NCBI GenBank assembly: GCA_949285735.1
Contig: CASEAQ010000020.1
Span: 1-40,624, forward strand
Reading direction: 5' to 3'
Source of the DNA: an uncultured Bacteroidales bacterium
GTDB lineage: Bacteria > Bacteroidota > Bacteroidia > Bacteroidales > Muribaculaceae
Length of the DNA: 40,624 bases
The translations under genes and the position numbers were made by a program. The notes under the pieces are model-generated. The model was not told where the DNA came from. It did not search any database and saw only the letters and a list, made by a program, of their open reading frames with translations. Shown here one piece after another: positions 1,825-34,565 of the stretch; within the stretch, counting starts at the first letter, position 1, and every line of letters starts with the position of its first letter.

Positions 1825-4062
1825 TCATGTCAATGGTAGCAACTTGGAGCGTCTGGCAGGCTTGTTTGTCAGCCAAAATTCAAGTTGCCCTCCTTCCACG
1901 ATTGACTTGTGTGGAAGTTGGAAGTCTTTTATCTCTTTGCCGTTGAGCAGCACTTTGTCGATATATATCGCGTCCTGCCCGTCTTTGTGCACGGTTATTG
2001 TGAATGCCTTGCCGTTGCCAGTCGATATTTTGGCATTTTCAATCGACGGAGTGCCAATGATGTATATTCCCGAGGCGGGGTTGACTGGATAGAAGCCAAG
2101 GGCACTGAATATGTACCATGCCGACATCTCACCGCAGTCGTCGTTTCCAGCATAGCCCGACGATGAGCGGTTGTAGAGTGTGCGTTTTATGTAGTCGATG
2201 AGTTGTTGGGTCTTTGCTGGTTGTCCGGCAAGGGCATACAGGTAGGCAACGTGGTGGCTTGGCTCGTTGCCGTGGGCATACAGCCCTACAAATCCCGATG
2301 CGTTGTCGTTCTTCTTGCCACTTGTGACGGTCGATGTGAAAAACTCGTCCAACTTATTGCAAAAAGCCTCCTTGCCGCCAGTCAGGGCAATAAGCCCGTC
2401 AACGTCGTGCGGCACATACCAGTAGTATTGCCATGCGTTTCCCTCGGTGAACGGGTAGCCACCGTTTGCCCCGTATTTGTATGGGTCGAACGGTTCAATC
2501 CACTCCCCGTTGCTGTTGCGCGAGCGGAAGAATCCCGTGCCGCTGTCGTGCAGGTTGCGGTAGTATTGCGACCGCGCCATGAATGCCGCCGCATCGCTGT
2601 CGTTGCCCATCGCCTTTGCAAGCTGTGCGGCACACCAGTCGTCGTAACTGAACTCAAGTGTTATCGACACCGATTGCGATTGCAGGTCTTCGGGCATATA
2701 TCCATATTTCTCCCACACGTCGAATGGTGCGTTGAGGTGTGGCGTGGTGAGGCTGGCTTTCACTGCCTCGTAGGCGTGTCGCTTGTCGATGCCGTCGATC
2801 CCCTTCAATACAGCGTCGGCGATTACCGGCACGGCGTGGTTGCCTATCATGCAATAGTTGTCTTGCCCCCACAGTTGCCACACTGGCAGGTAGCCATAGT
2901 AGTCGTATTGTCGCACCATGCTTGCCACGAATTGTGCTGTGAGCCGCGGTTCGATGATGGTGTAGAGCGGGTGAGCGGCGCGGTAGGTATCCCAGAGCGA
3001 GAATGTGGAATAGTGCTCTTCACCCTTGCTAAGCTGTTGTGTCGAATAGTCGGCAGCCATATATTCTCCGTTTACGTCGGAGAACAGGTTGGGTTGCACC
3101 ATTGTGTGGTATAGCGCGGTGTAGAATATCTCTTTCTCGTCTTCGGGGGCATCGATTGCGATTTTCCCCAATTGGCGGTTCCACTCATTGCGGGCAAGGG
3201 CTTTCAGCTCGTCGAAGCTGTGGTTTGCAGCCTCGGCTTGCATGTTGAGTTTTGCGTTTTCTATCGATACGGGCGATATTGCCACGCGGCACTCCACTTC
3301 GCGGCATTTGCCAAACGAGAACAGGGCCTTCAGGCACGTGCCGTTGGCAACGGCTGCATTTTCTGTCGTCCTGCCGTCGTTGTCGAGCGTCCAGCCGGCA
3401 AGCGGCTGCGAAAACTCGATGTGGAAGTATATCTTGCGCAACTTTGCCCATCCAGTGATTATGCGGTAACCCTCGACTGTGGTGGGGCTCGTGACGCGTA
3501 TCTGCGAATTGATTATCCTGCGTCCCCAGCTATCCTTGTTTGCCGAGTGGTCGAGGTCGAGCCTTATAGCGGCATTGCTTGTGCCGCTGCGGTAGGTGTA
3601 GCGATGTATTCCAGTGCGGCGAGTGGCAGTCAGTTCCACGTTGATACTGTCATCTTCGAGCAGCACTTGGTAATACCCAGGTGCAGCACTCTCGTTGTTG
3701 TGAGAGAAGCTGGAGCAGGTTCTGGCAGGGTTCTCCACCGGCAACAGCATGATGTCGATGAAGTCTGACGCACCCGTTCCGCTGAGTCGCGTGTGAGAGA
3801 AGCCATATATCGTGCTGTCGTTGTAGTCATACCCGGCAGCACAATCCCAGTCGGGGGCGTTGCGGGTGTCGGGCGACAATTGCACCATTCCAAACGGCAT
3901 GGTCGCTCCGGGGTAGTTGTTTCCGCTTAGTCCGCCTTCGATGGCACCGGTGCCTATGAACGGGTTGACGTAGGCAGCCACATCGGCTGTGGCGGCATTC
4001 GCCGCCACGCTGATGCATACTGTCAAAACGGGAGCAAGCAATATTTGCTTCATGTCAATCAT
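1825..4062 (-). CDS. GH92 alpha-mannosidase-type glycoside hydrolase
   Basis: The protein has 745 residues, usual for GH92, a family of calcium-dependent inverting exo-alpha-mannosidases. A signal peptide (MKQILLAPVLTVC..., cleaved near ANA) points to the periplasm or cell surface. The mature protein opens with the family hallmark YVNPFIGTG and continues with YPGATMPFGMVQLSPD. EGNAWQYYW carries Glu540, the likely general acid, and NDDCGEMSAW carries Asp642, a likely general-base region residue; both follow the characterised BT3990 by motif memory. Its ATG overlaps the stop codon of the upstream GH95 gene (ATGA), so the two are translationally coupled. A second ATG, 9 bases downstream, is an alternative start. 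In context it would remove alpha-linked mannose or a related sugar. Linkage specificity cannot be read from the sequence. Confidence 0.92.
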   Translation of the reverse strand: MIDMKQILLAPVLTVCISVAANAATADVAAYVNPFIGTGAIEGGLSGNNYPGATMPFGMVQLSPDTRNAPDWDCAAGYDYNDSTIYGFSHTRLSGTGASDFIDIMLLPVENPARTCSSFSHNNESAAPGYYQVLLEDDSINVELTATRRTGIHRYTYRSGTSNAAIRLDLDHSANKDSWGRRIINSQIRVTSPTTVEGYRIITGWAKLRKIYFHIEFSQPLAGWTLDNDGRTTENAAVANGTCLKALFSFGKCREVECRVAISPVSIENAKLNMQAEAANHSFDELKALARNEWNRQLGKIAIDAPEDEKEIFYTALYHTMVQPNLFSDVNGEYMAADYSTQQLSKGEEHYSTFSLWDTYRAAHPLYTIIEPRLTAQFVASMVRQYDYYGYLPVWQLWGQDNYCMIGNHAVPVIADAVLKGIDGIDKRHAYEAVKASLTTPHLNAPFDVWEKYGYMPEDLQSQSVSITLEFSYDDWCAAQLAKAMGNDSDAAAFMARSQYYRNLHDSGTGFFRSRNSNGEWIEPFDPYKYGANGGYPFTEGNAWQYYWYVPHDVDGLIALTGGKEAFCNKLDEFFTSTVTSGKKNDNASGFVGLYAHGNEPSHHVAYLYALAGQPAKTQQLIDYIKRTLYNRSSSGYAGNDDCGEMSAWYIFSALGFYPVNPASGIYIIGTPSIENAKISTGNGKAFTITVHKDGQDAIYIDKVLLNGKEIKDFQLPHKSIVEGGQLEFWLTNKPARRSKLLPLT

Positions 4063-6446
4063 TTTATCTCGATTTTATCGCCTTTGTGCAATTCTGTTGT
4101 CAGGAAGCCGTCTTTGTCGATAGCCGTGTTCTTGATGCCGTTTACATAGGCATTATACTTGCCCTTTGGCATTTTCACCTTGAATTTGCCGTCGGCAGTG
4201 GCAGTCATCGACGCTTCGGTAATTTTCCCCTTCTTCCATGCTGCCGACACCTCGGCTCCGCCTTTCACGCACAATCCGCTGAAGCTGCCGTCATTCCATT
4301 CTTTGGGCAGGCAAGGCAACAGTTCCACATATCCCTCGTGGCACTGAACCAGCATCTCGGCAATACCTGCCGCACCGCCGGCGTTGCCATCGATGGCAAA
4401 TATGTCGTAGGGTGCGCCGGCTATGCCTTCGGGCGAAATTGTGAACAGGTTTTCGCGGCTGAGCGTGCCGAGCAGTGTGTTGACACTTTCAACGGCTTTT
4501 TCAGCATTTTTCAACCGTGCATAGAAGCATATCATGTTGGCTCGGCTCCATTCCACGTCTTCCCAGCCTTCGGCAGAGAGGCGGCGTTCGATCGACACGC
4601 GTGCGGCGCGTGCCAAGTCGGGTGTCTTGTCGAGCGTTATTTGTGCGTATGGGTAGAGCGAGAGCAGGTGCATGGTGTGGCGATGGTTGGGGTGGGTCTC
4701 GTCATAGTCTTCGAGCCATTCCATCACGCCGCCATATTTCTTGCTGATGCCGATTGGCGGCAATTTGGTGATAGCCATGCGCAACGAGTCGGCAAACGGC
4801 TTGTCGATGCCCAATATGTCGGACGATTGGATACAAGCGTTGAATATCTCGTAGGCAAACACGCGGTCACACGTGGGCATCATCGAGGCACACAAGTCGT
4901 GGCCGTTCCAGCCAAATGAGTTCTCGGGCGAGATGCTCGGACCCGTGAGCAGGTAACCCGTTTTGGGGTCTTCTACCATGTAGTCGAGCAAGAATTGTGC
5001 GTTACCTTTCAGCAGCGGATAGGCTGTGTTGGCAAGGAAGTCGCGGTCTTGCGTGTATTCATATTGCGTCCACAGGTGGGTGGCAATCCAGCTGCCAGCC
5101 GTCGGGTGCAAGCCCCATGCGATTGCGCCGGAGAGTGCCGAGAAGCCCCAAATGTTGGCAGTGGTGTGGGCAGTCCAGCCACGGCAGCCATATACCTTGG
5201 CGGCAGTTTCGGTGCCGTAGTATGCAAGGTCGTTGATGTAGTTGAACAGCGGAACGTTGCATTCGGCAAGGTTGCCCACGTTGCTAATCCAGTAGTTCTG
5301 CTGGGTGTTCATGTCGAGGTGGTAGTCGTTGGTCCAACCCATGTTGCAGGCAAGGTTGTCGTTGAAAAAACCCTGCAATGCTATCGGCAGCGGCGAGTTT
5401 TCCCTCGAAGAGGCGATTTCGAGATAACGCCCGTATTGGAAAAACAATTCGTGCAACCCGGCATCTTCGCCTCCGTCTTCCACGGCTTGGCGGCGCACAT
5501 CGGTGGGCACGGCGCTGTTGTCCTTTCCAAGTGTCATCGATACGCGCGAGAATATCGGTGCGTAATCGTCGATGTGCTCCTGCTTGAGGCTCTCGAAGTC
5601 GTTGCTCAGCGCGGTGCTTGTCTCTTTGTTGCAAAGAGCCTTGTAGTATTCGTTCTTGTAGTCGGTTCTCACGTCGGCGATAATCTTCACTGCATCGGCT
5701 CCGGCAACCGTGATGGTGCTGTCGGTGGAGCTTACGTTGCCGTTGGCAGCATCGATGGCAATGCGTCCGATGAAGCACACGCCGGGTTCTTGTTCGCTGT
5801 TTAGGAATGCGCGGCCCTCAAAGATGAGCTGGTTGCCCTCGGTCCTGATTTCCGACTTCCTCAGCAAGTCGAGTTTCACATCGAGCGAAATTGCGCCCGG
5901 GCGGCTTGCGGTGAAATTCATTGCCAGCACGTCCTTGGGGTTGGACGCGATATATTCACGCCTGTATTCGGTGTCGCCTATCTTGAATGTAACGCTGCTC
6001 ACGGCTGTGGCAAGGTCGAGTTGGCGGCGGTAGTCGCTCACTTCCCCTTGCGGGTAGTCGAATTGTATTTTCAGGTCACCTATTGGCAGGTGCGAGCCAA
6101 ATGTGTTGGTGCGCCCGGTGAGGTTGTCGCTTGCGATTTTGTTGCCTTCTACCATTTTCCCGTCGAGGAACATCTGTTGCAATTCCTTCATACGTTCGCC
6201 GCCAAACAGGCGGTCTTGTGTGGGATTGTAGCACCCCGACCACATGCTCGATTCGTTCAATGCTAAGGTCTCTTCTTCGATTCCTCCATAAATCATTGCT
6301 CCAAGTCGCCCGTTGCCAATCGGAAGCGATTGCATCCATTCCGTGGCAGGCTGCGCATACCACATCATGGTATCGCTTGCAAGTGCCGGGAAACAAGTAG
6401 CCAATATGGCACAGCAGCCAATGGCAATTCGTGAATATATTTTCAT
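4059..6446 (-). CDS. GH95 alpha-L-fucosidase / alpha-L-galactosidase-type hydrolase
   Basis: The protein has 795 residues with a signal peptide ending near ALA, so it is exported. Its mature start, WYAQPATEWMQSLPIGNGRLGAM, is the GH95 signature, followed by LALNESSMWSG. GH95 enzymes invert and cleave alpha-1,2-L-fucosyl or alpha-L-galactosyl ends. The likely general acid is Glu508 in SPENSF. In the active-site motif that in Bifidobacterium AfcA reads Asn-x-Asn, this protein has Asp378-Met-Asn380, followed by TQQNYW rather than the more common MNYW. That may mark a subgroup with another sugar preference. It is the first gene of a two-gene operon with GH92, transcribed away from the HTCS. A TAATTTTG box and a tandem 13-base repeat lie upstream. 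The family call is secure; substrate choice between fucose and L-galactose is not. Confidence 0.92.
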   Translation of the reverse strand: MKIYSRIAIGCCAILATCFPALASDTMMWYAQPATEWMQSLPIGNGRLGAMIYGGIEEETLALNESSMWSGCYNPTQDRLFGGERMKELQQMFLDGKMVEGNKIASDNLTGRTNTFGSHLPIGDLKIQFDYPQGEVSDYRRQLDLATAVSSVTFKIGDTEYRREYIASNPKDVLAMNFTASRPGAISLDVKLDLLRKSEIRTEGNQLIFEGRAFLNSEQEPGVCFIGRIAIDAANGNVSSTDSTITVAGADAVKIIADVRTDYKNEYYKALCNKETSTALSNDFESLKQEHIDDYAPIFSRVSMTLGKDNSAVPTDVRRQAVEDGGEDAGLHELFFQYGRYLEIASSRENSPLPIALQGFFNDNLACNMGWTNDYHLDMNTQQNYWISNVGNLAECNVPLFNYINDLAYYGTETAAKVYGCRGWTAHTTANIWGFSALSGAIAWGLHPTAGSWIATHLWTQYEYTQDRDFLANTAYPLLKGNAQFLLDYMVEDPKTGYLLTGPSISPENSFGWNGHDLCASMMPTCDRVFAYEIFNACIQSSDILGIDKPFADSLRMAITKLPPIGISKKYGGVMEWLEDYDETHPNHRHTMHLLSLYPYAQITLDKTPDLARAARVSIERRLSAEGWEDVEWSRANMICFYARLKNAEKAVESVNTLLGTLSRENLFTISPEGIAGAPYDIFAIDGNAGGAAGIAEMLVQCHEGYVELLPCLPKEWNDGSFSGLCVKGGAEVSAAWKKGKITEASMTATADGKFKVKMPKGKYNAYVNGIKNTAIDKDGFLTTELHKGDKIEIK

Positions 6447-6474: not shown

Positions 6475-6482
6475 CAAAATTA
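6475..6482 (-). promoter_or_regulatory. -7 box (TAATTTTG) of the GH95-GH92 operon
   Basis: On the minus strand this reads TAATTTTG, a full TAnnTTTG match 29 bases before the GH95 start. No good -33 TTTG lies at the expected distance, as is common for promoters that depend on an activator. This fits regulation by the divergent HTCS. Confidence 0.55.
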
Positions 6483-6551: not shown

Positions 6552-6586
6552 TTTGGCGCATTTGTTGCAATATTTGGCGCATTTGT
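6552..6586. promoter_or_regulatory. Tandem 21-bp-spaced direct repeat, candidate HTCS operator (copy A)
   Basis: TTTGGCGCATTTGT occurs at 6552-6565 and identically at 6573-6586, start to start 21 bp, which is two helical turns. The CGCATTTG core begins 75 bp upstream of the GH95 -7 box. The second copy ends in a small palindrome, CATTTGTCAAATG (6580-6592). A closely matching pair with the same spacing lies before the FG-GAP/SusCD operon (34518-34551), which supports a shared regulator, most simply the adjacent HTCS. Sequence and spacing are seen; binding is inferred. Confidence 0.7.
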
Positions 6587-6592
6587 CAAATG

Positions 6593-7025
6593 TTATTGGT
6601 GATATTTGTATGGAAGGGGTAAAAATATATTTCGTGAGAGAATTTTTGACTTTTATTTAAAGTGCCGAGTTAATAATATTTTACATTTAAGTACAATTGG
6701 TCGGAAAACCAGTAAATTACCACTTTTTGTTTTGATGCTTATTAACAATGTAATATCTTTTTGCCTGAAAATAAATTGTTTAATGTTTGGTACATATTGT
6801 TATTTTTAATTATTTTGCCGATGATTTGTGGGCTTGGATGATTTTGCTCAAGGGGGGCTTTTAGATTTTAGATGTAGAAACTACCAATAAGACTTGATTG
6901 CAGATGCCGCGTAGCTTGACATCATTTTGACAATTAAAATTTAAGGGGTACTCTTAACGGGGTGATATTGTCTGAGTCCATTATTTTGTTATACAACCAC
7001 CTAAAAACAACTTTTGCCAGTTATC
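6593..7025. other. AT-rich divergent intergenic region
   Basis: About 430 bases between the operator and the HTCS start. No credible gene is present; the one longer open frame (6606-6809, plus strand) is AT-rich, resembles nothing and has no recognisable start context. The HTCS promoter should lie here, but I find only near matches to TAnnTTTG (for example TTATTTTG near 6981-6988) and do not call one. Confidence 0.5.
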
Positions 7026-10000
7026 ATGAATTTCAGATTTATCCTCTTTTTGCTCCTCATGACCATGTTGTGCCCTTTTGCTGCGGCATTGCCGGCTGCC
7101 AAGGCGAGTTATTCGTTTGTGCGAATCGGCAGCGAAAATGGTTTGTCGCAAAGCAACGTCAAGGCGATTTTGCAAGATAGCTATGGGTTCATGTGGTTTG
7201 GAACCAAGAACGGGTTGAACCGCTACGATGGCAACCGCATCGTGTGCTTCGACTGCCACGATGCCGAAAAGAAGCTCAGCAACCATAACATCTCGGCTCT
7301 GTTTGAAGATGACAATCGCCGCCTGTGGGTGGGTACCGACGAAGGTGTGTACATCTATGACTTGCGACGCGATGAATTTTCCTTTATCGACAATCTCGCC
7401 CCCGACGGACAGATGATGACTACATGGGTTGCCTGTATCGAGAAGGACTTGAGCGGGAACATTTGGATTGTCATACCCGAAAAAGGAGTTTTCAGGTGGA
7501 GCGACAACGAACTGTTTCACTATACTTTGCCCGTGCGCGATCAACCGAGCGACTTGTGTGTGACTGACAACGGCGAAGTGTGGGTGTGTGGTTGGAACAT
7601 GGGGCTGATGAAGTATGACCACGCCGCCGACAAGTTTGTGCAGGTGAGCCGTGACCGCACTGGGCGTTCGTTGCTTGGCATCGAAACCAACACTATAAGC
7701 GCCTATGGAGATTGCTTGGTTATGGCGGTGCAGAATGGTGGGTTGAAAAAGTATGACTATAAGCAAGACTTGCTACAAGATATTGTAGTTGACGAGTTGC
7801 GTCACACGTTTGTAAGGAACGCCGAGGTGTATGGCGACGAGATATGGGCGGGCACGCACGACGGGCTTTATGTAATTAATGAAAAGACGGGTGATGTCGT
7901 GCATTCACGGTCGAGCATGATAGACCATTACAGTCTATCCGACAACATTATCTATTCGATATACCGCGACAGGGAGGGTGGAACTTGGCTCGGAACAATG
8001 TTTGGCGGTGTCAACTATTATGCCAATCGAAATTTCAATTTCTACAAGTTCTTGCCGCGCAACGACGGCAATTCTTTATCGGGGCGTCGCATACGTGAAC
8101 TTGTTGCCGATGGGAGCAGTATTTGGGTCGGTACTGAAGATGCAGGATTGAATGAACTCGATGTTGACAGTTACACCATTAGGAGATGTACAAGTCCTGC
8201 CGCGGTGAAGGAGGCTGTGACGCTTGCCATTTGTGTCCACCAGGGTGTTACGTTTTGCAGTTATTTCAAGGGTGGCTTGCAAGTGATTGACCAGCAAGGT
8301 GGCACGAAGTTTTATAATAATTCGCAATTGAATATCGACAATAGCATATATGCCCTTGTGGTTGACAGCAAGGGCAGGTTGTGGGCTGGCGGCGATGCCG
8401 GGCTTTACTGGTCGGAGTCGTCCACCGAGTTGCAGTTCAAGCCTGTAACTAATTTGAATGATATATGGGTGTGGGATATATTGGAAACCAGTGACGGCAA
8501 TTTGTGGCTCACAACGATGGGATATGGAGTGGCTCGGTTTAATCCGGCTACAGGGCAGGTTAAGTTTTACACCAATAACCCTGACGACGACAAGTCGATA
8601 AGTTCCAACTCGGTGAGTTCGGTAATGGAAGACTCGTCGGGAAATTTGTGGTTTTCGACCGACCGTGGAGGTATATGCCGCTACAATGCCGCTACCGACG
8701 ATTTCTCTTGTTTCTCGCTCGACCAGGGATTCCCCGACGATGTTGCATACGAAATTCTTGAAGACAGTAACGGCTATTTGTGGTTTGGCACGAATTGTGG
8801 CTTGGTAAAATTTAATCCACGAGATGGCTATGTGCGCACCTATACCACCAAAGACGGATTGTGCAGCAACCAGTTTAATTACAAGTCGGCGGAGAAAGGC
8901 AACGACGGACGGTTTTATTTTGGAACAATCGACGGGCTTGTGTCGTTCAATCCCGATGCCGACATAGAGCTGCTGCCCGATGCGCCGATATACTTCACGC
9001 GGCTGTCAATAGCCAATGAAGAGGTTACCGAGCATTCACCCGATTCGCCGCTTAAGGAGAGCATACTCGAAGCCGACAAAATCACTTTGCCCTATGACAA
9101 GGCAAGCATAAGCCTTGACATTGCCCTGTTGTCCTATTCCACATCGCCTGTCAATGAATATTATTATATGCTCGAACCGGTTGACAAGCATTGGATAAGG
9201 TCGAGCCAGGCGAGCATCCAGTATGCCAATTTGTCGCCGGGCGAGTATGTGCTGCACGTCAGTGCCACCAATGGCGACAGTGAAGCATTGGAAAGGGGCG
9301 ATGTTCCGTCGCGCTCGTTGGCAATCACTGTTTTGTCGCCGTGGTGGAGTTCAGATATTGCCATCGTTTGCTGGATTGTGCTGGCAGTGTGCTTGTTCAC
9401 GGTGTGGTTTATATGGTATCGCCGGCACAAAAACAAGCAGTTGTCAGAGCGGCAGAAGTTGTTTGAGGTGGAAAAAGAGAAGGAACTGTATGAAAACAAG
9501 GTTGACTTCTTTACCGAAATTGCCCACGAGATACGCACTCCGTTGACGCTCATCAACGGACCGCTTGAGATAATAAAGGAGCAGGGCGATGTGCAAAATC
9601 CACGATTGGCAAAGAATTTGAAAGTGATTGAGCAAAATACCAAGCGATTGCTCGACCTTGCCTCGCAGCTGCTCGACTTCCAGAAAATTGGTGCCAACAA
9701 GTTGAAGCTGAAGTATGAGATTGTTGACGTGTCGCAACTGTTGCGCGAAACGGTGGCTCGCTTTGAGCCGACGTTTGCCCACGACAACAAGTCGCTGACA
9801 ATAACTCGCTGTGTTGATAATCTTGTGGCTTGCATCGACAAGGAGGCTATTACCAAGATATTCAGCAATTTGTTGAATAATGCCTTGAAATATGGTCAAA
9901 AGACTATAACGGTAGAACTGTTGCAGCGCGACAATAAGTTTGTGGTGCGCGTGTCGAGCGACGGCACCAAGATACCGCAGGAACGCTCGGAGCAGATTTT

Positions 10001-11108
10001 TGAACCATTCTATCAGCTTGACAACCGCACCAAGGAGAAGCGCGGAGTGGGTATAGGTTTGTCGTTGTCGCGTTCGCTCGCGATGGCACACAAGGGCACG
10101 TTGATACTCGATGCCAATCCCGATGAACAAACCAACACATTTGTGCTCACCATTCCGTTGAATACCAATGGCGGGCAAGTGCCGGTGCCAGTGGCGGCTG
10201 CGGCGACGAACAGCAACGAAGTGATTATGGAAGCCGAAGATGGCGAATATGCCGACGACGGGCAGGAAGATATGCACGACTACAGGATTTTGGTCGTGGA
10301 AGACGAGCCAGAGTTGCTCGATATCTTGTGCGAACGGTTGTCGCAGTCGTTTGAAGTGGAACGTGCCACCAACGGCAAAGAGGCACTCGAAGTGCTGAAG
10401 CAGTGCAATGTAGATCTCATTCTTAGCGATGTGATGATGCCCGTGATGAATGGTGTGGAATTGTGCAAAAGCGTTAAGTCGGATCTCGATTTGTGCCATA
10501 TCCCGGTAATTTTCCTTACTGCGAAGAATGATATTAACAGCAAAATAACTGGTTTGAAAGCTGGCGGCGAGGCTTATATTGAGAAGCCATTCTCATACGA
10601 CTATCTGAAGTCGCAAATCGTGTCGATGCTCACCAACCGGCAAAAGGAGCGTGAGGCATTCTCCAAACGCCCATTCTTCCCCATGCGCAATATGCAGATG
10701 AGCAGCGAGGACAAGGCTTTTATGGACAAACTGCTGAAGGTAATCAACGACCACATTACCGATGAACAATTCAATGTGGCGCAGCTTGCCGATGAGTTGT
10801 GCATGAGCCGTTCGAGCCTGTTGCGTAAAATCAAGAGCGTGTTCAACCTGCCGCCACTCGACTTCATTCGACTCATAAAGCTGAAGAAGGCTGCCGAGCT
10901 CATTCAAGAGGGCAAGTACAAGGTGGGCGAGGTGTGCTTCATGGTGGGATTCAGTTCACACAGCTACTTCAGCAAGTTGTTCAGCAAGCAATTTGGAATG
11001 TCGCCAAAAGATTTTGAGCGTCAGGTGCAGGCGCAGCGCGAGAAGTCGGGCAGCCGTCAAGATGTGGCTGAAGAATTGGTGCAGATGCAGCAAAGCCCGT
11101 CGGAGTGA
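7026..11108 (+). CDS. Hybrid two-component system sensor/regulator (HTCS)
   Basis: The 1360-residue protein joins a sensor and its response regulator in one chain, the usual PUL regulator of Bacteroidales. In order it has a signal sequence; a periplasmic two-bladed propeller sensor built of Reg_prop-type repeats (many W.GT..GL.R/Y motifs, ~30-690); a Y_Y_Y domain (~700-765); one membrane helix (~778-800); a histidine kinase with His834 in FTEIAHEIRTPLT and an ATPase domain (~930-1040); a receiver with acidic EDE and phospho-acceptor Asp1135 in LSDVMMP; and an AraC-type HTH at the C-terminus (~1250-1350). A TTG 12 bases upstream is rejected in favour of ATG at 7026, which begins the signal peptide. 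It is divergent from GH95-GH92 and followed at 92 bp by GH2-SASA. It probably senses an oligosaccharide of the target glycan and activates the PUL promoters; the tandem repeats at 6552 and 34518 are its likely sites. Confidence 0.95.
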   Translation: MNFRFILFLLLMTMLCPFAAALPAAKASYSFVRIGSENGLSQSNVKAILQDSYGFMWFGTKNGLNRYDGNRIVCFDCHDAEKKLSNHNISALFEDDNRRLWVGTDEGVYIYDLRRDEFSFIDNLAPDGQMMTTWVACIEKDLSGNIWIVIPEKGVFRWSDNELFHYTLPVRDQPSDLCVTDNGEVWVCGWNMGLMKYDHAADKFVQVSRDRTGRSLLGIETNTISAYGDCLVMAVQNGGLKKYDYKQDLLQDIVVDELRHTFVRNAEVYGDEIWAGTHDGLYVINEKTGDVVHSRSSMIDHYSLSDNIIYSIYRDREGGTWLGTMFGGVNYYANRNFNFYKFLPRNDGNSLSGRRIRELVADGSSIWVGTEDAGLNELDVDSYTIRRCTSPAAVKEAVTLAICVHQGVTFCSYFKGGLQVIDQQGGTKFYNNSQLNIDNSIYALVVDSKGRLWAGGDAGLYWSESSTELQFKPVTNLNDIWVWDILETSDGNLWLTTMGYGVARFNPATGQVKFYTNNPDDDKSISSNSVSSVMEDSSGNLWFSTDRGGICRYNAATDDFSCFSLDQGFPDDVAYEILEDSNGYLWFGTNCGLVKFNPRDGYVRTYTTKDGLCSNQFNYKSAEKGNDGRFYFGTIDGLVSFNPDADIELLPDAPIYFTRLSIANEEVTEHSPDSPLKESILEADKITLPYDKASISLDIALLSYSTSPVNEYYYMLEPVDKHWIRSSQASIQYANLSPGEYVLHVSATNGDSEALERGDVPSRSLAITVLSPWWSSDIAIVCWIVLAVCLFTVWFIWYRRHKNKQLSERQKLFEVEKEKELYENKVDFFTEIAHEIRTPLTLINGPLEIIKEQGDVQNPRLAKNLKVIEQNTKRLLDLASQLLDFQKIGANKLKLKYEIVDVSQLLRETVARFEPTFAHDNKSLTITRCVDNLVACIDKEAITKIFSNLLNNALKYGQKTITVELLQRDNKFVVRVSSDGTKIPQERSEQIFEPFYQLDNRTKEKRGVGIGLSLSRSLAMAHKGTLILDANPDEQTNTFVLTIPLNTNGGQVPVPVAAAATNSNEVIMEAEDGEYADDGQEDMHDYRILVVEDEPELLDILCERLSQSFEVERATNGKEALEVLKQCNVDLILSDVMMPVMNGVELCKSVKSDLDLCHIPVIFLTAKNDINSKITGLKAGGEAYIEKPFSYDYLKSQIVSMLTNRQKEREAFSKRPFFPMRNMQMSSEDKAFMDKLLKVINDHITDEQFNVAQLADELCMSRSSLLRKIKSVFNLPPLDFIRLIKLKKAAELIQEGKYKVGEVCFMVGFSSHSYFSKLFSKQFGMSPKDFERQVQAQREKSGSRQDVAEELVQMQQSPSE

Positions 11109-11200: not shown

Positions 11201-14152
11201 ATGAATTTAAGGAAATTTTTATTCGCGTCATTAGCTGTGCTACTGTCGTTTTTCGGCGTGGCACAGGCAAAAGAGTTTTATCTGCATAGCGACGACGGCA
11301 GCGCGCGCTGGACTGTGATGCCGGCAGCATCGGTCGCCGATGTGCAGCAGTTGTTCAAGCAGGGATATACCAATCCCGACGAAGTGGAGGCTGTGGTGCC
11401 GGGAACGGTTTTCACTGCTTATGTCAATGCCGGAAAGGAGAAAGACCCCAATTTCGGCGACAACATTCACAATGTTGACAGGTCGAAGTATGACCGCAGT
11501 TTCTGGTATCGCACATCGTTTACGGTGCCGAGCGACTTCGACAAGGATTATGTGTGGCTCAATTTCCGTGGTATAAATCGTCGAGGCGACATTTACCTGA
11601 ATGGGCAGTTCCTTGGCACTCTCGACGGGTTCATGCACCGTGGTTGTTTCGATGTGTCGCCGTTGCTCGACCGCGACGGCGAGAATGTACTTGCCGTACT
11701 CGTGCATATACCCAAGACACCGCTTGCCAACCAAGGGAGTCCAAACTACCTTTCGAGTGCCGGTTGGGACTGGATGCCATACGTGCCGGGGCTTAACAGC
11801 GGCATCACCGACAAGGTGTATTTGTCTAACACGGGTGCGACGACGCTGAAAGACACATGGGTTCGCTCGGCTGTTCCAACGAGGGCGATAGGCGAGCTGA
11901 CTGTCTCTACCGAAGTGACCAACAATGGCAGCGAGAAGTCGAGTGTGGAGCTAAAAGGCACTATCATGCCTGGTAATGTGGAATTTTCGCAAACGGTGGA
12001 ACTTGCTCCGGGCGAAACTAAGACCCTGAGTTTCGACAAACGCTATTACAAGCAGCTCGTTATCAACAATCCTCGTTTGTGGTGGCCCAATGGCTACGGC
12101 AATCCCGACTTGTATAATTGCCGCCTTGAGGTGGTGCAAGACGGGGTGGTGTCGGACTGCCAAAGTGTGGATTTCGGTATCAAGGAGTATTCCTACGACA
12201 AAGACGGCGGCGTGTTCCATATCAAGATTAACGGTGTGCCAGTGTTTGTGAAAGGTGCCGACTGGGGCATGTCGGAATATATGCTGCGTTGCCGCGGTGA
12301 GGAGTACGAGACAAAGATAAGGTTGCACAAGGAGATGAACTTCAATATGATACGCAACTGGCTCGGCTCTGTCACCGACGACGAGTTTTATCAATATTGC
12401 GACAAGTATGGTATTATGGTGTGGGATGACTTCTGGATTAACTCCAACCCCAATTTGCCATACGACTTGAACGCCTTTAACAACAATATGATAGAAAAGA
12501 TAAAGCGAGTGCGCAACCACCCGTGCGTGGCTGTGTGGTGTGGTGACAACGAGGGTACGCCCGAACCGCCGCTCACGGGGTGGATGGCTGAAAACATAAA
12601 GACTTTCGACGGCGGTGACCGCTATTTCCAGCCTCGTTCAAATGCCGGCGGGTTGAGCGGTAGCGGCCCGTGGGGTGCGAAAGACCAGCGATGGTACTTC
12701 TTGCCCTATCCCGTATATGGACTTGACGACCAGATGCAATGTGGCTGGGGGTTCCGCACAGAAATAGGTACTGCCGTAGTGCCAAATGTGGAAAGTTTGC
12801 GTAAATTTATGCCTGAGAAAGATTTGTGGCCCATCAACGATATGTGGAACTTGCATTATTTCGGTTCAAACGCCGGCAACGGGCTTCCCGACCAGTATGC
12901 TGCCGACATCAACAACAAGTATGGCACAGCTACGGGCGTGGAAGACTTCTGCCGCAAGGCGCAGCTCATCAACCTTGAGTCGAACAAGGCTCTATATGAG
13001 GGTTGGCTCGACCGTATGTGGAACGATGCTTCGGGCGTGATGAACTGGATGGGACAGTCGGCTTATCCGTCGATGGTGTGGCAAACGTATGACTACTACT
13101 ACGACCTCACCGGTGCATATTTTGGTTGCAAGAGCGGTTGCGAACCGTTGCACATCTTCTGGAATCCTGTCACCGACGAGGTGAAGGTTGCCAACACCAC
13201 AAAGCAAGATTATGAGGGCTTGACTGCCGAGGTGGCTGTTTACAATATGGATGGCAAGGTTGTCGAAAGGTATTCAAAGAGTGCGACAATCAACAGCCCC
13301 TCAAACACTGCGGCCACATGCTTTGTCATAGATTTCGAGAAAGGGCGTGATATAATCTCACGTGGCAAGACTGCGGTGGCTTCATCTACATCGGTCGGCG
13401 ATGCGTCAATGGTGATTGACTGCGACAAAAATACTCGATGGGCTGCCGAGAAAGCCGACAACGAGTGGATATATGTTGACCTTGGCGAGGTGATGCCAGT
13501 GGGAGGCGTGCGCCTCGACTGGGAAGCAGCCTACGGAAAAGAATACAAGATAGAGGTTTCGACCGACGGCAAACGCTGGACCGAGAAATTCCACGTGACC
13601 GATGGTGAACCGGGTATGAGGGAGATTATCTTCCCCGACGTTGATGCCCGATATGTGCGCCTGCTTGGGTTGAAACTTGGCTGGTGGTTTGGCTATTCGT
13701 TGTGGAGCATGGACGTGCTTGGCGGCGTGAAGCCTTCGCAAGGATTGAGCGATGTGCATTTCATTCGCCTCACGTTGAAGGACAAGAATGGCAACACCGT
13801 CTCGGAAAACAACTATTGGCGAGGCAACGACCGTTGCGACTTCACTGCACTCAACGATTTGCAGCCTGTTGACTTGAAGGTTTCGTCGAAACTTGTTCGC
13901 AGCGGCGACGGACGTGCCACAATCAATGCCACCGTCAGCTTGCCTTCGTCGGCAAAAAGCCCAGCCTTTGCAGTGCACCTCCAGGCTTTGCGCAAGAGTG
14001 ATGGCGAACGTCTGTTGCCGGCTATAACGAGCGACAACTATTTTACGCTCATACCTGGCGAGAAAAAGGTTGTGACTATCGAGATGGACGAAGCGTTGCT
14101 CGAAGGCGATGATTATACACTTTCGGTAATACCTTACAACAATAAAAAATAA
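11201..14152 (+). CDS. GH2 exo-beta-glycosidase (exo-glucosaminidase / beta-mannosidase type) with F5/8C domain
   Basis: The protein has 983 residues and a signal peptide ending at AQA. The N-terminal GH2 sugar-binding domain contains VPGTVFTAYVNAG and WYRTSF, then SSAGWDWMPY and WWPNGYGNPDLYN, as in the CsxA exo-beta-D-glucosaminidase and endo-beta-mannosidase branch of GH2. The catalytic barrel carries acid/base Glu451 in WCGDNEG and the probable nucleophile Glu521 in FRTEIGT; their spacing of 70 is close to the 72 of CsxA (Glu469/Glu541, from memory). A galactose-binding-like F5/8 type C domain (~725-850) is inserted between the barrel and the C-terminal immunoglobulin-like domain. It would act on beta-linked glucosamine or mannose. 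It precedes the SASA esterase by 8 bases in one operon. The family is certain; the substrate is open. Confidence 0.88.
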   Translation: MNLRKFLFASLAVLLSFFGVAQAKEFYLHSDDGSARWTVMPAASVADVQQLFKQGYTNPDEVEAVVPGTVFTAYVNAGKEKDPNFGDNIHNVDRSKYDRSFWYRTSFTVPSDFDKDYVWLNFRGINRRGDIYLNGQFLGTLDGFMHRGCFDVSPLLDRDGENVLAVLVHIPKTPLANQGSPNYLSSAGWDWMPYVPGLNSGITDKVYLSNTGATTLKDTWVRSAVPTRAIGELTVSTEVTNNGSEKSSVELKGTIMPGNVEFSQTVELAPGETKTLSFDKRYYKQLVINNPRLWWPNGYGNPDLYNCRLEVVQDGVVSDCQSVDFGIKEYSYDKDGGVFHIKINGVPVFVKGADWGMSEYMLRCRGEEYETKIRLHKEMNFNMIRNWLGSVTDDEFYQYCDKYGIMVWDDFWINSNPNLPYDLNAFNNNMIEKIKRVRNHPCVAVWCGDNEGTPEPPLTGWMAENIKTFDGGDRYFQPRSNAGGLSGSGPWGAKDQRWYFLPYPVYGLDDQMQCGWGFRTEIGTAVVPNVESLRKFMPEKDLWPINDMWNLHYFGSNAGNGLPDQYAADINNKYGTATGVEDFCRKAQLINLESNKALYEGWLDRMWNDASGVMNWMGQSAYPSMVWQTYDYYYDLTGAYFGCKSGCEPLHIFWNPVTDEVKVANTTKQDYEGLTAEVAVYNMDGKVVERYSKSATINSPSNTAATCFVIDFEKGRDIISRGKTAVASSTSVGDASMVIDCDKNTRWAAEKADNEWIYVDLGEVMPVGGVRLDWEAAYGKEYKIEVSTDGKRWTEKFHVTDGEPGMREIIFPDVDARYVRLLGLKLGWWFGYSLWSMDVLGGVKPSQGLSDVHFIRLTLKDKNGNTVSENNYWRGNDRCDFTALNDLQPVDLKVSSKLVRSGDGRATINATVSLPSSAKSPAFAVHLQALRKSDGERLLPAITSDNYFTLIPGEKKVVTIEMDEALLEGDDYTLSVIPYNNKK

Positions 14153-14160
14153 AAAATTAT

Positions 14161-16143
14161 ATGGATAAGATATTAAAAAAAGCCATTGTGGCAGGTGTGG
14201 CTGGATTGGCAGCTCTGGCTGGGGGCGACCTCAATGCACGTGTGACGCTTCCCGGCATTTTCACCGACAACATGGTGCTGCAACGCAACGACACGGTTAC
14301 GCTTTACGGCACTGCCGACAAGAATAGCCGAGTGACAGTAAAGGCTGGTTGGCTGCGCGATGCGGTCGAGGCTCGCTCGGGTGCCGATGGCACATGGAGC
14401 GTCAGGGTGGCAACTGCCGATGCCGGCGGTCCCTACGAGATTGCAATTTCCGACGGCAAAGAGTTGAAGTTGCGCAATGTAATGCTTGGCGAAGTGTGGT
14501 TCTGCTCGGGGCAATCCAACATGGAGATGCCGCTTGCCGGGTGGGGCAAAATCAAGGATTATGAGCAGGAAGTTGCCAATGCCAATTACCCTAATATTCG
14601 CCTCTATCTTGTGAAGCAAGCCACATCGATTGTGCCTACCGACAAGGTGGAATCGCCGCTCGGCGGGTGGCAGGAATGTTCGCCCTCGACTGTTCCCGAA
14701 TTTTCGTCGCTTGCCTACTTCTTTGCTCGCCGCCTGTGGCAGGAACTTGGTGTGCCTGTGGGCGTTGTGGCAAGCACATGGGGCGGAACTCCTGCCGAGG
14801 CGTGGACGAGTGCCGAGACGCTGAAGAATGTGTATGGTTACAGCGAGAAGATTGCCGACTTGGAGGCTCTCGGCTTTGACAGCGACAAGATTTTTGCACT
14901 CTACCAAAAGCAACTCGATGAGTGGAAAGCTGCCGTGTATAAAATCGATGAGGGATATGATGCAGCTGGCAAGGAACGCTGGATAGGCGAGGAGGTTGAC
15001 GACTCGGGTTGGAGCGAGATGTCTGTGCCCAACTATATCGAGCAAGCCGGTCTGTCGGCATTTGATGGCGTGGTGTGGTTTCGCCGCACCGTCGAGGTGC
15101 CGCAGCAGTGGGCTGGCAAGGAGTTGAAACTCGACTTGGGCGCAATCGACGATGAAGACATTGTTTACTGGAACGGCAAGAAGATTGCCGAGGGGAGCGG
15201 ATACAACACTCCGCGGCACTACGTGGTTCCTGCGGCGTGTGTCAAGGCTGGTAGGAATGTTATCGTCGTCAGGGATTTCGACACTGGCGGCGAGGGCGGT
15301 CTCACCGGACCTGCCGATGCCATGGCGTTGCACCGTGGCGGCAAGGAATCTATCTCGCTTGCTGGCGCATGGAAATATCGTGTGGGCTGCTCGCTTGTTG
15401 ACATGCCGGCATTGCCCATGTCGCCCGGCAGTTCGAGCCACCCCACCACTTTGTTCAATGCTATGGTCAACCCGTGGCTGAAGTATAAGTTCAAGGGAGC
15501 GATATGGTACCAGGGCGAAGCCAACGTGGGGCGTGCCAAGGAGTATGAAACGCTGTTCCAGTCGCTCATATACGACTGGCGCAAGCACTTTGGCGACGAC
15601 GATATGCCATTCTACTTCGTGCAGCTTGCCAATTATTTGCAACGTGCCGATGTGCAACCCGAATCGCAATGGGCTGCCTTGCGCGAGGCTCAGGCTGCGG
15701 CATTGCACATGGAAAATACGGGCATGATGGTGAATATCGACTTGGGCGAAGCCAACGACATCCATCCGAAGAACAAGCAGGAAGTGGGTCGCCGCTTGTC
15801 GGCTATAGCACTGTCGCGCACCTACGGCTTGGATATTGTGGCAAGCGCACCTGTTTACAAGGATTATGTGGTGACAGGCAACCGTGTGTGTATCACGTTT
15901 GATATTCCTTCCGACGGTGAGCCGTTTGTGGAATCGAACGACGTGAAAGGCTTTGTCGTTGCTGGCAGCGACCGTGTGTTCCACAAGGCAAAGGCTTACA
16001 CCGAGAATGGCAAGGTCGTGGTTTATTCCGACGAAGTGGATATTCCCGTTGCAGTGCGTTATGGCTGGGCTGACAATCCCGAGTGCACATTGAAGACCGC
16101 TTCGGGCTTCAGCGTAGCACCTTTCCGCACCGACAATTGGTGA
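14161..16143 (+). CDS. SASA-family carbohydrate esterase (sialate O-acetylesterase-like)
   Basis: The protein has 660 residues with an N-terminal hydrophobic export signal. The SASA/DUF303 hydrolase core holds the nucleophile Ser119 in CSGQSNMEM and the catalytic dyad Asp533-x-His535 in NDIHPKN; WYQGEAN near the middle is another family block. A beta-galactosidase-like jelly-roll domain (~residues 275-350, with WFRRTVEVP and LGAIDDEDIVYWNGK) interrupts the core, the usual layout of the long forms. Family members remove O-acetyl groups from sialic acids or from xylose and other sugars. It starts 8 bases after GH2, so the two are probably cotranscribed. It would deacetylate the glycan before exo-enzymes act. 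Whether sialic acid is the real acceptor is unknown; no sialidase is in the window. Confidence 0.88.
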   Translation: MDKILKKAIVAGVAGLAALAGGDLNARVTLPGIFTDNMVLQRNDTVTLYGTADKNSRVTVKAGWLRDAVEARSGADGTWSVRVATADAGGPYEIAISDGKELKLRNVMLGEVWFCSGQSNMEMPLAGWGKIKDYEQEVANANYPNIRLYLVKQATSIVPTDKVESPLGGWQECSPSTVPEFSSLAYFFARRLWQELGVPVGVVASTWGGTPAEAWTSAETLKNVYGYSEKIADLEALGFDSDKIFALYQKQLDEWKAAVYKIDEGYDAAGKERWIGEEVDDSGWSEMSVPNYIEQAGLSAFDGVVWFRRTVEVPQQWAGKELKLDLGAIDDEDIVYWNGKKIAEGSGYNTPRHYVVPAACVKAGRNVIVVRDFDTGGEGGLTGPADAMALHRGGKESISLAGAWKYRVGCSLVDMPALPMSPGSSSHPTTLFNAMVNPWLKYKFKGAIWYQGEANVGRAKEYETLFQSLIYDWRKHFGDDDMPFYFVQLANYLQRADVQPESQWAALREAQAAALHMENTGMMVNIDLGEANDIHPKNKQEVGRRLSAIALSRTYGLDIVASAPVYKDYVVTGNRVCITFDIPSDGEPFVESNDVKGFVVAGSDRVFHKAKAYTENGKVVVYSDEVDIPVAVRYGWADNPECTLKTASGFSVAPFRTDNW

Positions 16144-16410: not shown

Positions 16411-18372
16411 TTATTTTACTTTTGTGAACTTTATTGCAAGTCCGCCGCCGCGCACCATTTCCACGTCGATGTTGCTCTTTGATGTCACGTTCATCTCCTT
16501 TATTTCGCAATTCTTGGGATTGTCGCCCGAGTCTTTTGCGTCACGGTAAATGGTTGCCTTGTATTTGCCTGCGCCCAAGAAGGAGAGCGGTAGCTTGAAG
16601 CTCGTGGGTGTCCAGCCGGTTATTGCGCCGAGATACCAGTCTTCACCATTGCGGCGGGCGACGGTGATGTGAGAGTCGGGGTTGCCGTTGAGGACGTGTG
16701 TCTCATCCCATCGAGCAGGAATATCCTTGATGAAATTGAAGGTCGGGTCGTTCTTGTAAACTTCGGGCCAGTCTGAAATCATAGGCAGCGGAGAGTCGTA
16801 AACGGCATACAGTGCCAAGTGCTGTGCGCGAGTACCCATCACCTCGGGGCGATCCATGTTGGGAACAAACTCTTCGGGTGTTACGTTGTCGAATCCGCCA
16901 GGAGTGTAGTCCATCAATCCGGGAATCATGCGGGTGAATGCCAGCGACACGCGGTTATCGGGATTGTCGCGCCAGCCTGCCTTGGACTGTTCCATGCCGA
17001 GTATTGCTTCATAGCCCACAACGTTGGGATATGTGCGGTGCAGACCCCAAGGAATGGTGCAACCATGGTAATCGACCATCAGGTGGTGTTCAGCCGCCTT
17101 TTCCGCCACACGATAGTAGAAGTCCATTCCGGCTTGGTCGTTGCGCTCGATGAAGTCGATTTTCAACCCAGCTACGCCCCATTGTTCGTATAACGGGAAA
17201 GCCTTTTCCATCTGGTTCCACACAAAGCGCGAGTATAGCCAAATGAACACCTTCACGCCCTTCGATTTGGCGTATGCCACAACTTCGGGTACATTGACGT
17301 TGTCGCGGCACTTGGTGATGTCCTCGCCACTCCAGCCGGCATCGATGGTCATGTATTCAAAGCCATTTTCGGCGGCAAAGTCAACGTAGTATTTCATCGT
17401 TTCGGTGGTATAGGCGATTTCACCAGCCTTGTTGCGGCTTCCGCACCACCAGTCCCACGACGACTTGCCTGCGCTAATCCACGATGTGTCGGCTATGCGG
17501 CACTCGGGGTTGAGGCTTGTAACAACGTCGGTCTCGGCAAAGTGCCCGGGTTGGTCGGCAAGCATTATCACGCGCCACGGCGACTTGTGGGGGAGGGTCG
17601 AAGCTATGGCAACTTCAGCTGCCGAGCGGCTTGGCGAAACAACAGTAGTCAATTTATGCCCGAGCCACGAGCCAGTGGGGTTGGTCAGGTAGGTGGCAGC
17701 GTTGCCCTCGATGTCGGTTTCGATAATTGCGCCCCAACCCACGCCCGGCATGTTGAGCAGCAGCGGCATACCCACCAAGTAGTGGCTTGCCACGCCGCCC
17801 TGGTTGGCAAGTGCCGACACGGGCATCTTGTGGTATTCGCTTTCGTAGCCCGACTTGAAGTTGGGCAATACGAGGGCGTATGCCGTTGCATCTTTAGCCA
17901 GGCAAAATTCGGTGCATTCTTCAACCAAGTTGTAGTCGGTGAGGTGTGTCTGTTCGGGCACGATGTAGCGGAATGCAACTGCGTCGTCATAGGCGCGGGC
18001 TTCGATAACGAGCTTGCGCTCGGTGAGATCCTGTTCCTGCATTTCGAGCCTCAGTGCGTTGTAGCTGTCCTCGACCTTGCCCGAGCGGCCGTGTACCAGC
18101 GTGTAGCTGTCAGTGCCTTGCGATTGCCGTGCATCGGTTATCTGCACGTTCGAGCCAAGCACGTTGGCTCCTTGTAGGTTCAGCCCGAGTTTCGAGCGTT
18201 CGATAAACGGCTTGCCATGATACACTACTTCATAGCTCAGTTTCAGGCTGTCGTCCGAGAATTTTATGGCAATGTTTCCATCGGGAGAAACCAATTCGTG
18301 AGTTGCGGCATTGGCTCCGGCAATGCATATTGCCGACAGGGCGCAAGTTGCCAGTCGTTGATAGATATTCAT
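16411..18372 (-). CDS. GH97 retaining-type alpha-galactosidase
   Basis: The 653-residue protein has a signal peptide ending near GANA and the GH97 opening HELVSPDGNIAIKF. GH97 contains inverting alpha-glucosidases such as SusB and retaining alpha-galactosidases such as BtGH97b. This one has Asp406 in GLKIDFIERNDQ and Glu461 in AILGMEQ. Both are offset by exactly 9 from the nucleophile Asp415 and acid/base Glu470 of BtGH97b (numbers from memory), which points to the retaining alpha-galactosidase branch. The GNH...N-type calcium site residues are not checked individually. It is the last gene of the operon, 135 bases after GH36 and separated by a stem-loop, so it may be expressed at a different level. 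Likely periplasmic, removing terminal alpha-galactose. Confidence 0.9.
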   Translation of the reverse strand: MNIYQRLATCALSAICIAGANAATHELVSPDGNIAIKFSDDSLKLSYEVVYHGKPFIERSKLGLNLQGANVLGSNVQITDARQSQGTDSYTLVHGRSGKVEDSYNALRLEMQEQDLTERKLVIEARAYDDAVAFRYIVPEQTHLTDYNLVEECTEFCLAKDATAYALVLPNFKSGYESEYHKMPVSALANQGGVASHYLVGMPLLLNMPGVGWGAIIETDIEGNAATYLTNPTGSWLGHKLTTVVSPSRSAAEVAIASTLPHKSPWRVIMLADQPGHFAETDVVTSLNPECRIADTSWISAGKSSWDWWCGSRNKAGEIAYTTETMKYYVDFAAENGFEYMTIDAGWSGEDITKCRDNVNVPEVVAYAKSKGVKVFIWLYSRFVWNQMEKAFPLYEQWGVAGLKIDFIERNDQAGMDFYYRVAEKAAEHHLMVDYHGCTIPWGLHRTYPNVVGYEAILGMEQSKAGWRDNPDNRVSLAFTRMIPGLMDYTPGGFDNVTPEEFVPNMDRPEVMGTRAQHLALYAVYDSPLPMISDWPEVYKNDPTFNFIKDIPARWDETHVLNGNPDSHITVARRNGEDWYLGAITGWTPTSFKLPLSFLGAGKYKATIYRDAKDSGDNPKNCEIKEMNVTSKSNIDVEMVRGGGLAIKFTKVK

Positions 18373-18395
18373 ACTTTTTTCAGTAATAAAAGGTT

Positions 18396-18465
18396 AAAAA
18401 ACAAATGAGTCCATTCTCATGCCTTGTTGCGAAACAGGTTGTTGCCAATACATGAAAATGGACTC
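18396..18465 (-). terminator. Internal terminator/attenuator between GH36 and GH97
   Basis: GAGTCCATTCTCATG (18407-18421) pairs with 18451-18465 over 15 bp with one mismatch and a 29-base loop. On the minus strand the stem is followed by ATTTGTTTTTT. No TAnnTTTG box is visible between it and the GH97 start. Either GH97 relies on read-through, making this an attenuator or processing site, or its promoter is cryptic. Confidence 0.7.
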
Positions 18466-18507
18466 GAAACAAATCAAAATATATATGTTAAAATAGACTG
18501 TGTGAAA

Positions 18508-20700: not shown

Positions 20701-20713
20701 TTTCTTTGGGGGA

Positions 20714-22717: not shown

Positions 22718-22733
22718 AATTTTTGTGTTGTTT

Positions 22734-24929: not shown

Positions 24930-24942
24930 GGGTATATGTGTT

Positions 24943-27276: not shown

Positions 27277-27309
27277 TCTAAAAGATAAATGATAATTAGA
27301 GGTTAAAAG

Positions 27310-27419
27310 CAATTGACAGCTGACAATAGACAATTGACAATGGATTACCCTGATTGCCAACTATCGATTGCCAACTGTCAATGAATAGCAGTTAATTCTT
27401 AATTGTCAGCGACAATTAA
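27310..27419. repeat. AATTGACA-type intergenic repeat tract and hairpin
   Basis: The gap between SusD and the T9SS-tailed enzyme contains CAATTGACA twice (27310-27318, 27331-27339), GATTGCCAACT twice (27352-27362, 27366-27376) and other GACAAT/TGTCAA fragments. A 9-bp palindromic hairpin (TTAATTGTC at 27399-27407 with 27411-27419, loop AGC) touches the SusD stop codon. Such CAATTGACAATT tracts are known as dispersed intergenic repeats in many bacterial genomes, including Bacteroidales (from memory). It interrupts the otherwise tight spacing of the operon. Confidence 0.6.
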
Positions 27420-32234: not shown

Positions 32235-32254
32235 GTTTTCGGTTGTTATTTGAT

Positions 32255-32318
32255 TGGTAAAAGAAAAGAGCCGGCAACGCGAGTGCCGATGTGCGTGAGC
32301 AACAGTGTGTTGCCGGCT
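32255..32318 (-). terminator. Stem-loop (terminator/attenuator) between FG-GAP gene and SusC
   Basis: On the minus strand AGCCGGCAAC and GTTGCCGGCT (32309-32318 and 32269-32278) pair perfectly over 10 bp around a 30-base loop, followed by CTTTTCTTTTA. It begins 17 bases beyond the FG-GAP stop. I see no TAnnTTTG box between it and SusC, so SusC appears to depend on read-through. It may set the ratio of the first gene to the rest. Confidence 0.7.
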
Positions 32319-32335
32319 CAAATTTCGTCAAGGTT

Positions 32336-34428: not shown

Positions 34429-34456
34429 CAAAGTTATTTTTCAATAGTTTAACAAA
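34429..34456 (-). promoter_or_regulatory. Promoter of the FG-GAP-SusCD-glycosidase operon
   Basis: The minus strand reads TAACTTTG at 34436-34429, a full TAnnTTTG match 51 bases before the start codon. A TTTG lies at 34456-34453, giving a 16-base spacer, shorter than the usual ~19, so the -33 is suboptimal. The tandem repeats upstream suggest activator dependence. Confidence 0.6.
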
Positions 34457-34517
34457 TAAGAACGTTCTCGGCAATAATCAACAATTTTGCAGCAATTACA
34501 GCCGTCACGGGTTGCAA

Positions 34518-34565
34518 TTGACGCATTTGTGCAGTGGGGTGACGCATTTGCACCAATTGCGTCAC
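34518..34565. promoter_or_regulatory. Tandem 21-bp-spaced direct repeat, candidate HTCS operator (copy B)
   Basis: TTGACGCATTTGT starts at 34518 and GTGACGCATTTGC at 34539, exactly 21 bp apart. The CGCATTTG core begins 86 bp upstream of the -7 box, 11 bp further than in the GH95 promoter, about one helical turn. A reversed TGCGTCAC (34558-34565) forms an 8-bp inverted repeat with GTGACGCA of the second copy. The four copies in the two promoters share TTGRCGCATTTGT with at most two differences. Confidence 0.7.

Follow-up and report, generated by a model that had tools for sequence, protein, structure and literature searches.

The window (the whole stretch of 40,624 nucleotides analysed here) carries a PUL in which two operons, GH95-GH92 and FG-GAP-SusCD, are each preceded by the same short direct repeat, which raises the question of which protein recognizes this repeat and which features of its arrangement are conserved. 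Upstream of GH95, TTTGGCGCATTTGT occupies positions 6552-6565 and recurs without change at 6573-6586, an offset of 21 bp, exactly as a first-pass annotation of this DNA had claimed for the interval 6552..6586. Upstream of FG-GAP, TTGACGCATTTGT (34518-34530) and GTGACGCATTTGC (34539-34551) are likewise offset by 21 bp. The 13-base word TTGRCGCATTTGT is treated as the half-site; its copies in the GH95 pair start at 6553 and 6574, and the distal FG-GAP copy (34539) differs from it at two positions, the identity within that pair being 11 bases. Both pairs lie on the plus strand and both downstream operons on the minus strand, so that the element has the same orientation to transcription at the two promoters, in agreement with the earlier claim. 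The -7 consensus of Bacteroides promoters is TANNTTTG. The coordinates of the half-sites, the putative -7 boxes and the PUL genes are collected in Table 1.

Table 1. Half-sites, putative promoter boxes and PUL genes of the window
Feature	Position	Strand	Detail
GH95 gene-proximal half-site	6553..6565	+	TTGGCGCATTTGT; along transcription ACAAATGCGCCAA; 83 bp before the -7 box
GH95 distal half-site	6574..6586	+	21 bp further upstream, in 5/5 genomes
FG-GAP-SusCD gene-proximal half-site	34518..34530	+	TTGACGCATTTGT; 94 bp before the -7 box, 5/5 genomes
FG-GAP-SusCD distal half-site	34539..34551	+	GTGACGCATTTGC; spacing 21 in the window
Putative -7 box, GH95-GH92 operon	6475..6482	-	TAATTTTG, fits TANNTTTG
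Putative -7 box, FG-GAP-SusCD operon	34429..34436	-	TAACTTTG
GH95, first gene behind the element	4059..6446	-	Pfam PF22124
GH92, second gene of the GH95 operon	1825..4062	-	Pfam PF07971
HTCS (hybrid two-component system), proposed binder of the element	7014..11108	+	Pfam, translation
AraC-type DNA-binding region of the HTCS, residues 1221-1345	10674..11048	+	
GH2-like and SASA genes, following the HTCS gene	11201..16143	+	
Remaining genes of the probable operon (two Melibiase_C proteins, two GH36, GH97)	16411..27360	-	
SusD-like protein	27420..29105	-	Pfam PF07980, PF14322
SusC-like TonB-dependent transporter	29133..32321	-	Pfam PF07715, PF13715
FG-GAP repeat protein carrying Por_Secre_tail; heads the long operon	32336..34378	-	Pfam PF13517, PF18962

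The long array on the minus strand runs from 34378 to 16411 and comprises the genes for the FG-GAP protein, SusC, SusD, two Melibiase_C proteins, two GH36 and GH97. Within its 16411..27360 portion the gaps are 13-59 bp, then 135 bp before GH97, and the intergenic gaps make co-transcription of the array probable. GH95-GH92 (minus strand, 6446-1825) and the HTCS gene (plus strand, from 7014) are divergent, and the element is located upstream of the PUL operons (GH95-GH92, FG-GAP-SusCD) of the HTCS's own locus; for the GH2-like and SASA genes the scan, at its threshold, shows no separate pair. The 135-bp gap before GH97 also contains, at 18407-18465, the inverted arms GAGTCCATT / AATGGACTC, 41 bp apart, which may form a hairpin for processing or attenuation within the long operon. 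Near the start of the window, a tRNA gene (395-467) is followed by an ORF (572-1690) with matches to Phage_30_3 and UPF0227. This tRNA is the only Rfam match in the window, and no Rfam family overlaps the element.

The genome of the window is a draft of 2.6 Mb (2,600,075 bases scanned), about 80% complete. The pattern GRCGCATTTG-N11-GRCGCATTTG has two matches in these bases, both at the two PUL promoters, while its reversed control has none; in this genome-wide search for 21-bp pairs, a check proposed by the first-pass annotation, the paired core is thus not scattered. The single word KRCGCATTTGY is found 26 times (5 for its reversed control), so that the pairing holds most of the signal. Throughout the window, no other 14-base direct repeat at 21 bp reaches at least 13 matches, a bar below which the FG-GAP pair, with its 11-base identity, itself falls, and none of 1000 first-order Markov resamples of both intergenic regions shares the two-copy structure. 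The observation is confirmed as exact and far above chance. To regard the likeness as a coincidence, or the words as members of a dispersed repeat family, one could point to the frequency of the single 11-base word and to 3 of 396 other family genomes (G286, G057, G205) in which the 9-base core is paired exactly at 21 bp, although the pair is confined to two promoters of the draft genome, is kept at a fixed distance in five genomes, and is matched by none of the resamples or reversed controls; such an origin has next to no probability. The matches in G286, G057 and G205 belong to a nearly identical 30-base stretch common across genera, taken for coding sequence from its look. Three genomes of different genera have in common, near base 1500 of L030, L031 and L032, ACGCATTTGCCGG(C/A)TC(G/C)TTCTACGCATTTG, in which this core is directly repeated at 21 bp, perhaps as a repeated peptide in coding sequence.

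Conservation was examined in nine genomes of the genus with a relaxed pattern that tolerates at most three mismatches in 26 fixed positions at spacings of 19, 20 and 21. This yields six matches at spacing 21, three at 19 and one at 20, the reversed controls yielding none, and all ten matches are the GH95 and FG-GAP promoters of the five HTCS-bearing genomes and nothing else. The pair is present at 10/10 promoters in the 5/5 genus genomes with an HTCS ortholog; comparison of orthologous promoters, also suggested by the first-pass annotation, hence finds it kept before both operons. In these five genomes the HTCS is 69-100% identical to that of the window (the next best match being 37%) and the FG-GAP gene 74-100%; at an E-value of 1e-40 the FG-GAP gene is absent from the four genus genomes that have no HTCS ortholog. 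By coordinates, L034-L037 are the loci of G044, G098, G082 and G138, and since L034 and L035 are near copies the sample represents four independent lineages, not five. In alignments of four sequences per promoter (L035 being left out as a near copy of L034), 22 of 26 half-site columns before GH95 and 24 of 26 before FG-GAP are invariant, against 57/240 and 56/235 columns, respectively, outside the half-sites in about 240 bp upstream; in the spacer, 4/8 columns are invariant before GH95 and 0/8 before FG-GAP. The half-sites are nearly invariant while the flanks drift, and an unsupervised search of the window's own HTCS group returns this element as the best conserved direct repeat.

The FG-GAP-SusCD operon differs in place and strand between L034-L036 and the window and L116, while GH92-GH95-HTCS-GH2-SASA stays collinear. 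In L034-L036 the operon follows SASA on the plus strand; in the window its start is on the minus strand, 18 kb past SASA; and in G138 it lies some 22 kb from the HTCS gene, in the opposite orientation to it. Despite these moves and inversions, the distance and orientation of the element to FG-GAP are constant, and an element that stays with its moved and inverted operon is what is expected for an operator of that operon.

At the R position, every one of the ten GH95 half-sites has G and every one of the ten FG-GAP half-sites has A; the letter is promoter-specific and kept across species. Since this split occurs in all five genomes, the two promoters were probably separated before these species. 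It also bears on the proposal that one promoter segment was recently copied onto the other operon, with no selection for a common regulator. Copying would account for the words of 11-13 bp and the orientation common to both promoters; against it stand the flanks and spacers of the two promoters, which differ by reading, the far stronger conservation of half-sites than of flanks, and the R position itself, and we regard it as very improbable. Two further sequences lie close to the FG-GAP operator. A third, inverted near-copy (GACGCAATTG, 34554-34563, minus strand) beside it was rejected, being not conserved in the alignment of relatives. Between the operator and the -7 box, a second block (34463-34497; TTGCYGCAAA...ATTGCY.A.AACG along transcription) is conserved in 4/4 aligned genomes; it may be the site of another factor and, by reading, has no resemblance to the BT4338 palindrome.

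The arrangement relative to the promoter proves more constant than the spacing within the pair. Measured from the start of the proximal half-site to the -7 box, the distance before GH95 is 83, 83, 83, 83 and 82 bp in the five genomes, and before FG-GAP it is 94 bp in all five. The GH95 boxes of the four relatives also fit TANNTTTG, and the FG-GAP box in G138 is TAACTTCG. The first-pass annotation had placed the element 75 and 86 bp from the -7 box, counted from another reference point; its 11-bp difference is retained in our 83 and 94 bp, and the claimed offset of one helical turn between promoters is found for the proximal copies. The spacing of the pair is 21 bp before GH95 in 5/5 genomes; before FG-GAP it is 21 in the window and 19, 19, 19 and 20 in the relatives, so that the assertion of a near-identical pair with exactly the same spacing holds for the window genome and fails for the FG-GAP orthologs. 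What is conserved is therefore how the proximal copy is phased to the -7 box, not the spacing of the pair, and the two promoters differ by one turn.

The HTCS is the only regulator in a Pfam scan of 19 window proteins. Above the Pfam cut-off, its chain comprises a Reg_prop/Y_Y_Y sensor, HisKA, HATPase_c, a receiver and HTH_18/HTH_AraC, a predicted domain content that is that of the HTCS family, and a CHIP motif is present by reading. Across the four orthologs the DNA-binding region keeps 84-86% identity, and the two HTH recognition stretches are, by reading, nearly unchanged. Operator pairs of AraC-family activators such as araI1-araI2 and the XylR sites consist of two direct-repeat half-sites about two turns apart, contacted by two AraC-type domains. 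The present element resembles these operators in its two direct-repeat half-sites about two helical turns apart, and differs in that the half-site starts span 82-115 bp upstream of the -7 box instead of abutting the promoter and in that the proposed regulator is a membrane-bound hybrid kinase.

A closer likeness is offered by HTCS sites that have been predicted in Bacteroides. According to the accessible passages of a study of 11 Bacteroides genomes (Ravcheev et al. 2013, PMC3878776), motifs were predicted for 16 of the 36 HTCSs of B. thetaiotaomicron, all 16 being direct repeats at an average distance of 21 bp that were interpreted as bound by dimers, two turns apart on a single face of the DNA. 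Predicted target sites of HTCSs are, going by those passages, less rare in print than the first-pass annotation implied in calling them seldom defined. The same layout is found here, with two direct boxes about two turns apart (19-21 bp) before PUL operons and an HTCS in the locus; because direct-repeat motifs of this type were already predicted in 2013, the element would belong to a known kind, and its sequence, regulon and anchoring rule would be what is new. The comparison with these motifs is one of layout and not of motif letters, the present genome lying outside the 11 Bacteroides genomes and its element having a sequence of its own. What goes beyond the passages of PMC3878776 is that the spacing varies between 19 and 21 before one operon while the distance from proximal copy to -7 box is fixed. 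Neither this operator nor a fixed distance from an HTCS half-site to the -7 box was found described in the accessible literature text, which covers papers without their figures and supplements and few subscription articles; the accessible part of PMC12125979 concerns a Vibrio XylR-like protein, not HTCS sites.

Taken together with the position of the element in the HTCS's own locus, these features make it very probable, as judged from sequence comparison, that the element is the operator pair of the PUL's own HTCS, with the HTCS as candidate binder and activator. The first-pass interpretation as an HTCS site is supported by the rarity of the pair, its conservation before both operons and the published 21-bp layout, and loses the equal spacing, which is not conserved. 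The element could instead be the site of another transcription factor encoded elsewhere (AraC, SusR-like or Crp-like, activator or repressor), with the HTCS binding some other sequence. The HTCS, GH95 and FG-GAP pass on together as a single locus, and co-occurrence of element and HTCS, confounded by this shared inheritance, cannot by itself name the binder; the second conserved block in the FG-GAP promoter could, moreover, be such a factor's site. On the other side, the pair occurs only at this PUL in the draft genome, contrary to what a regulator with further targets would suggest, the Pfam scan of 19 window proteins yields no second regulator, and a direct repeat near 21 bp is the HTCS layout given in the accessible text of PMC3878776. 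SusR-like motifs predicted there are also direct repeats with two conserved sites, but their centres lie 67 or 77 bp apart; with a spacing of 19-21 and a proposed binder of another protein family, a SusR-like operator was rejected. A site for the Crp-like BT4338 was likewise rejected, the motif described in the passages seen (PMC6989115, PMC3878776) being the palindrome wwwTATGTTnTAnAACATAwww, a different sequence that TTGRCGCATTTGT, by reading, does not fit. A diverged pair accompanies a diverged HTCS in two more distant genomes, G167 and G175, and altogether recognition by another factor is unlikely.

The next HTCS relatives are 37-46% identical over the chain (47 matches), and 20 of these cousin loci were analysed, the majority lying in related PULs that contain several of SASA, GH36, GH92, Melibiase_C, GH95 and GH2. 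G167 and G175 are sister genomes from a single genus other than the window's; their HTCSs are 44% identical over the chain and 59% in the DNA-binding region, and GH95 and the HTCS are again divergent neighbours. A diverged 21-bp direct repeat, ACATTTACGTCAA / ACAAATGTGTCAG, precedes GH95 in these genomes, its proximal copy located 72 bp from TAATTTTG, and a second diverged pair before GH2 is likewise 72 bp from its box; 72, 83 and 94 bp are steps of 11. With a PWM cut of 14, chosen after the scores were seen, pairs scoring at least 14 occur in 7 of 68 upstream regions of the 20 cousin loci vs 0 of 86 in 19 other HTCS loci. At cuts of 6, 8, 10 and 12 the counts are 13, 12, 11 and 9 of 68 for the cousins vs 9, 8, 3 and 2 of 86 for the others, the contrast thus fading at the lower cuts. 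The seven matches fall in 5/20 cousin loci (15/20 have none); four come from the sister genomes G167 and G175, and of the remaining three, two lack TANNTTTG in range and the box of the third lies at 54 bp. These data suggest, with moderate but not conclusive force, that the word follows the protein.

Consensus scans add isolated matches. Of 25 cousin HTCS genes (L072-L096) scanned over 1.5 kb of upstream sequence, just two, L092 and L094, whose genomes belong to the same genus, exceed 18/26 (21 each). Among the cousin loci, positions 2099-2130 of L125 score 22/26 at spacing 19 and adjoin an ORF start in a cousin PUL; the control locus L110 scores 19/26 at spacing 22. In the case of L128 and L129, a low-scoring match before the HTCS, with its box at 94, was not taken as support. 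The GH2 stretch of these two loci is nearly palindromic, and different scans read it in either direction. The R letter is equal between half-sites in both L128 pairs and unequal in the weak GH2 pair of L129.

The distances invite a more general reading, which we put forward only tentatively: an operator grammar of HTCSs in which the proximal half-site would sit on a helical ladder counted from the -7 box (72, 83, 94 bp; 11-bp steps), while the distal half-site slides over 19-21 bp. Within this ladder, it is conceivable, if somewhat doubtful, that a membrane-tethered dimer contacts polymerase through one of its domains, the other serving as a flexible anchor. The ladder is weakened by the three of seven cousin matches without a box on it. 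An unsupervised search of 19 loci from four further HTCS groups in the genus gave no conserved direct repeat, a weak negative in view of heavy ORF masking and of 6/19 loci having no candidate, so the grammar is not generalised. If true, it would make the operators of many uncharacterised HTCSs predictable from sequence.

The accessible portions of PMC11253607 report that the response-regulator parts of HTCSs bind susCD promoter DNA in a phosphorylation-dependent manner in gel shifts, and describe an inhibitory contact of the receiver with the S/CHIP motif. For the present PUL, we infer that the HTCS is the binder, that it binds as a dimer and depends on phosphorylation, and that it activates transcription. 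In this mechanism, a membrane-bound HTCS dimer would sense a glycan breakdown product in the periplasm and phosphorylate its receiver domains, freeing the two AraC-type DNA-binding domains. The proximal half-site TTGRCGCATTTGT would be occupied by one domain, and its partner would sit in the same orientation on the distal half-site, about two turns upstream. The proximal domain, placed at a fixed rotational position to RNA polymerase (83 or 94 bp from the -7 box), would activate transcription, and the distal domain, being loosely tethered, would accept 19-21 bp. In this way a single sensor would switch on two operons, GH95-GH92 and FG-GAP-SusC-SusD-glycosidase.

The general picture of how HTCSs find their targets is unchanged by these results. 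For the PUL of an uncultured gut bacterium, a probable member of the Muribaculaceae, they yield a concrete candidate operator, a predicted regulon of two operons and ten genes, and a candidate binding protein, and they add a testable quantitative promoter rule in which the phase of the proximal half-site is fixed and the spacing to the distal one is loose.
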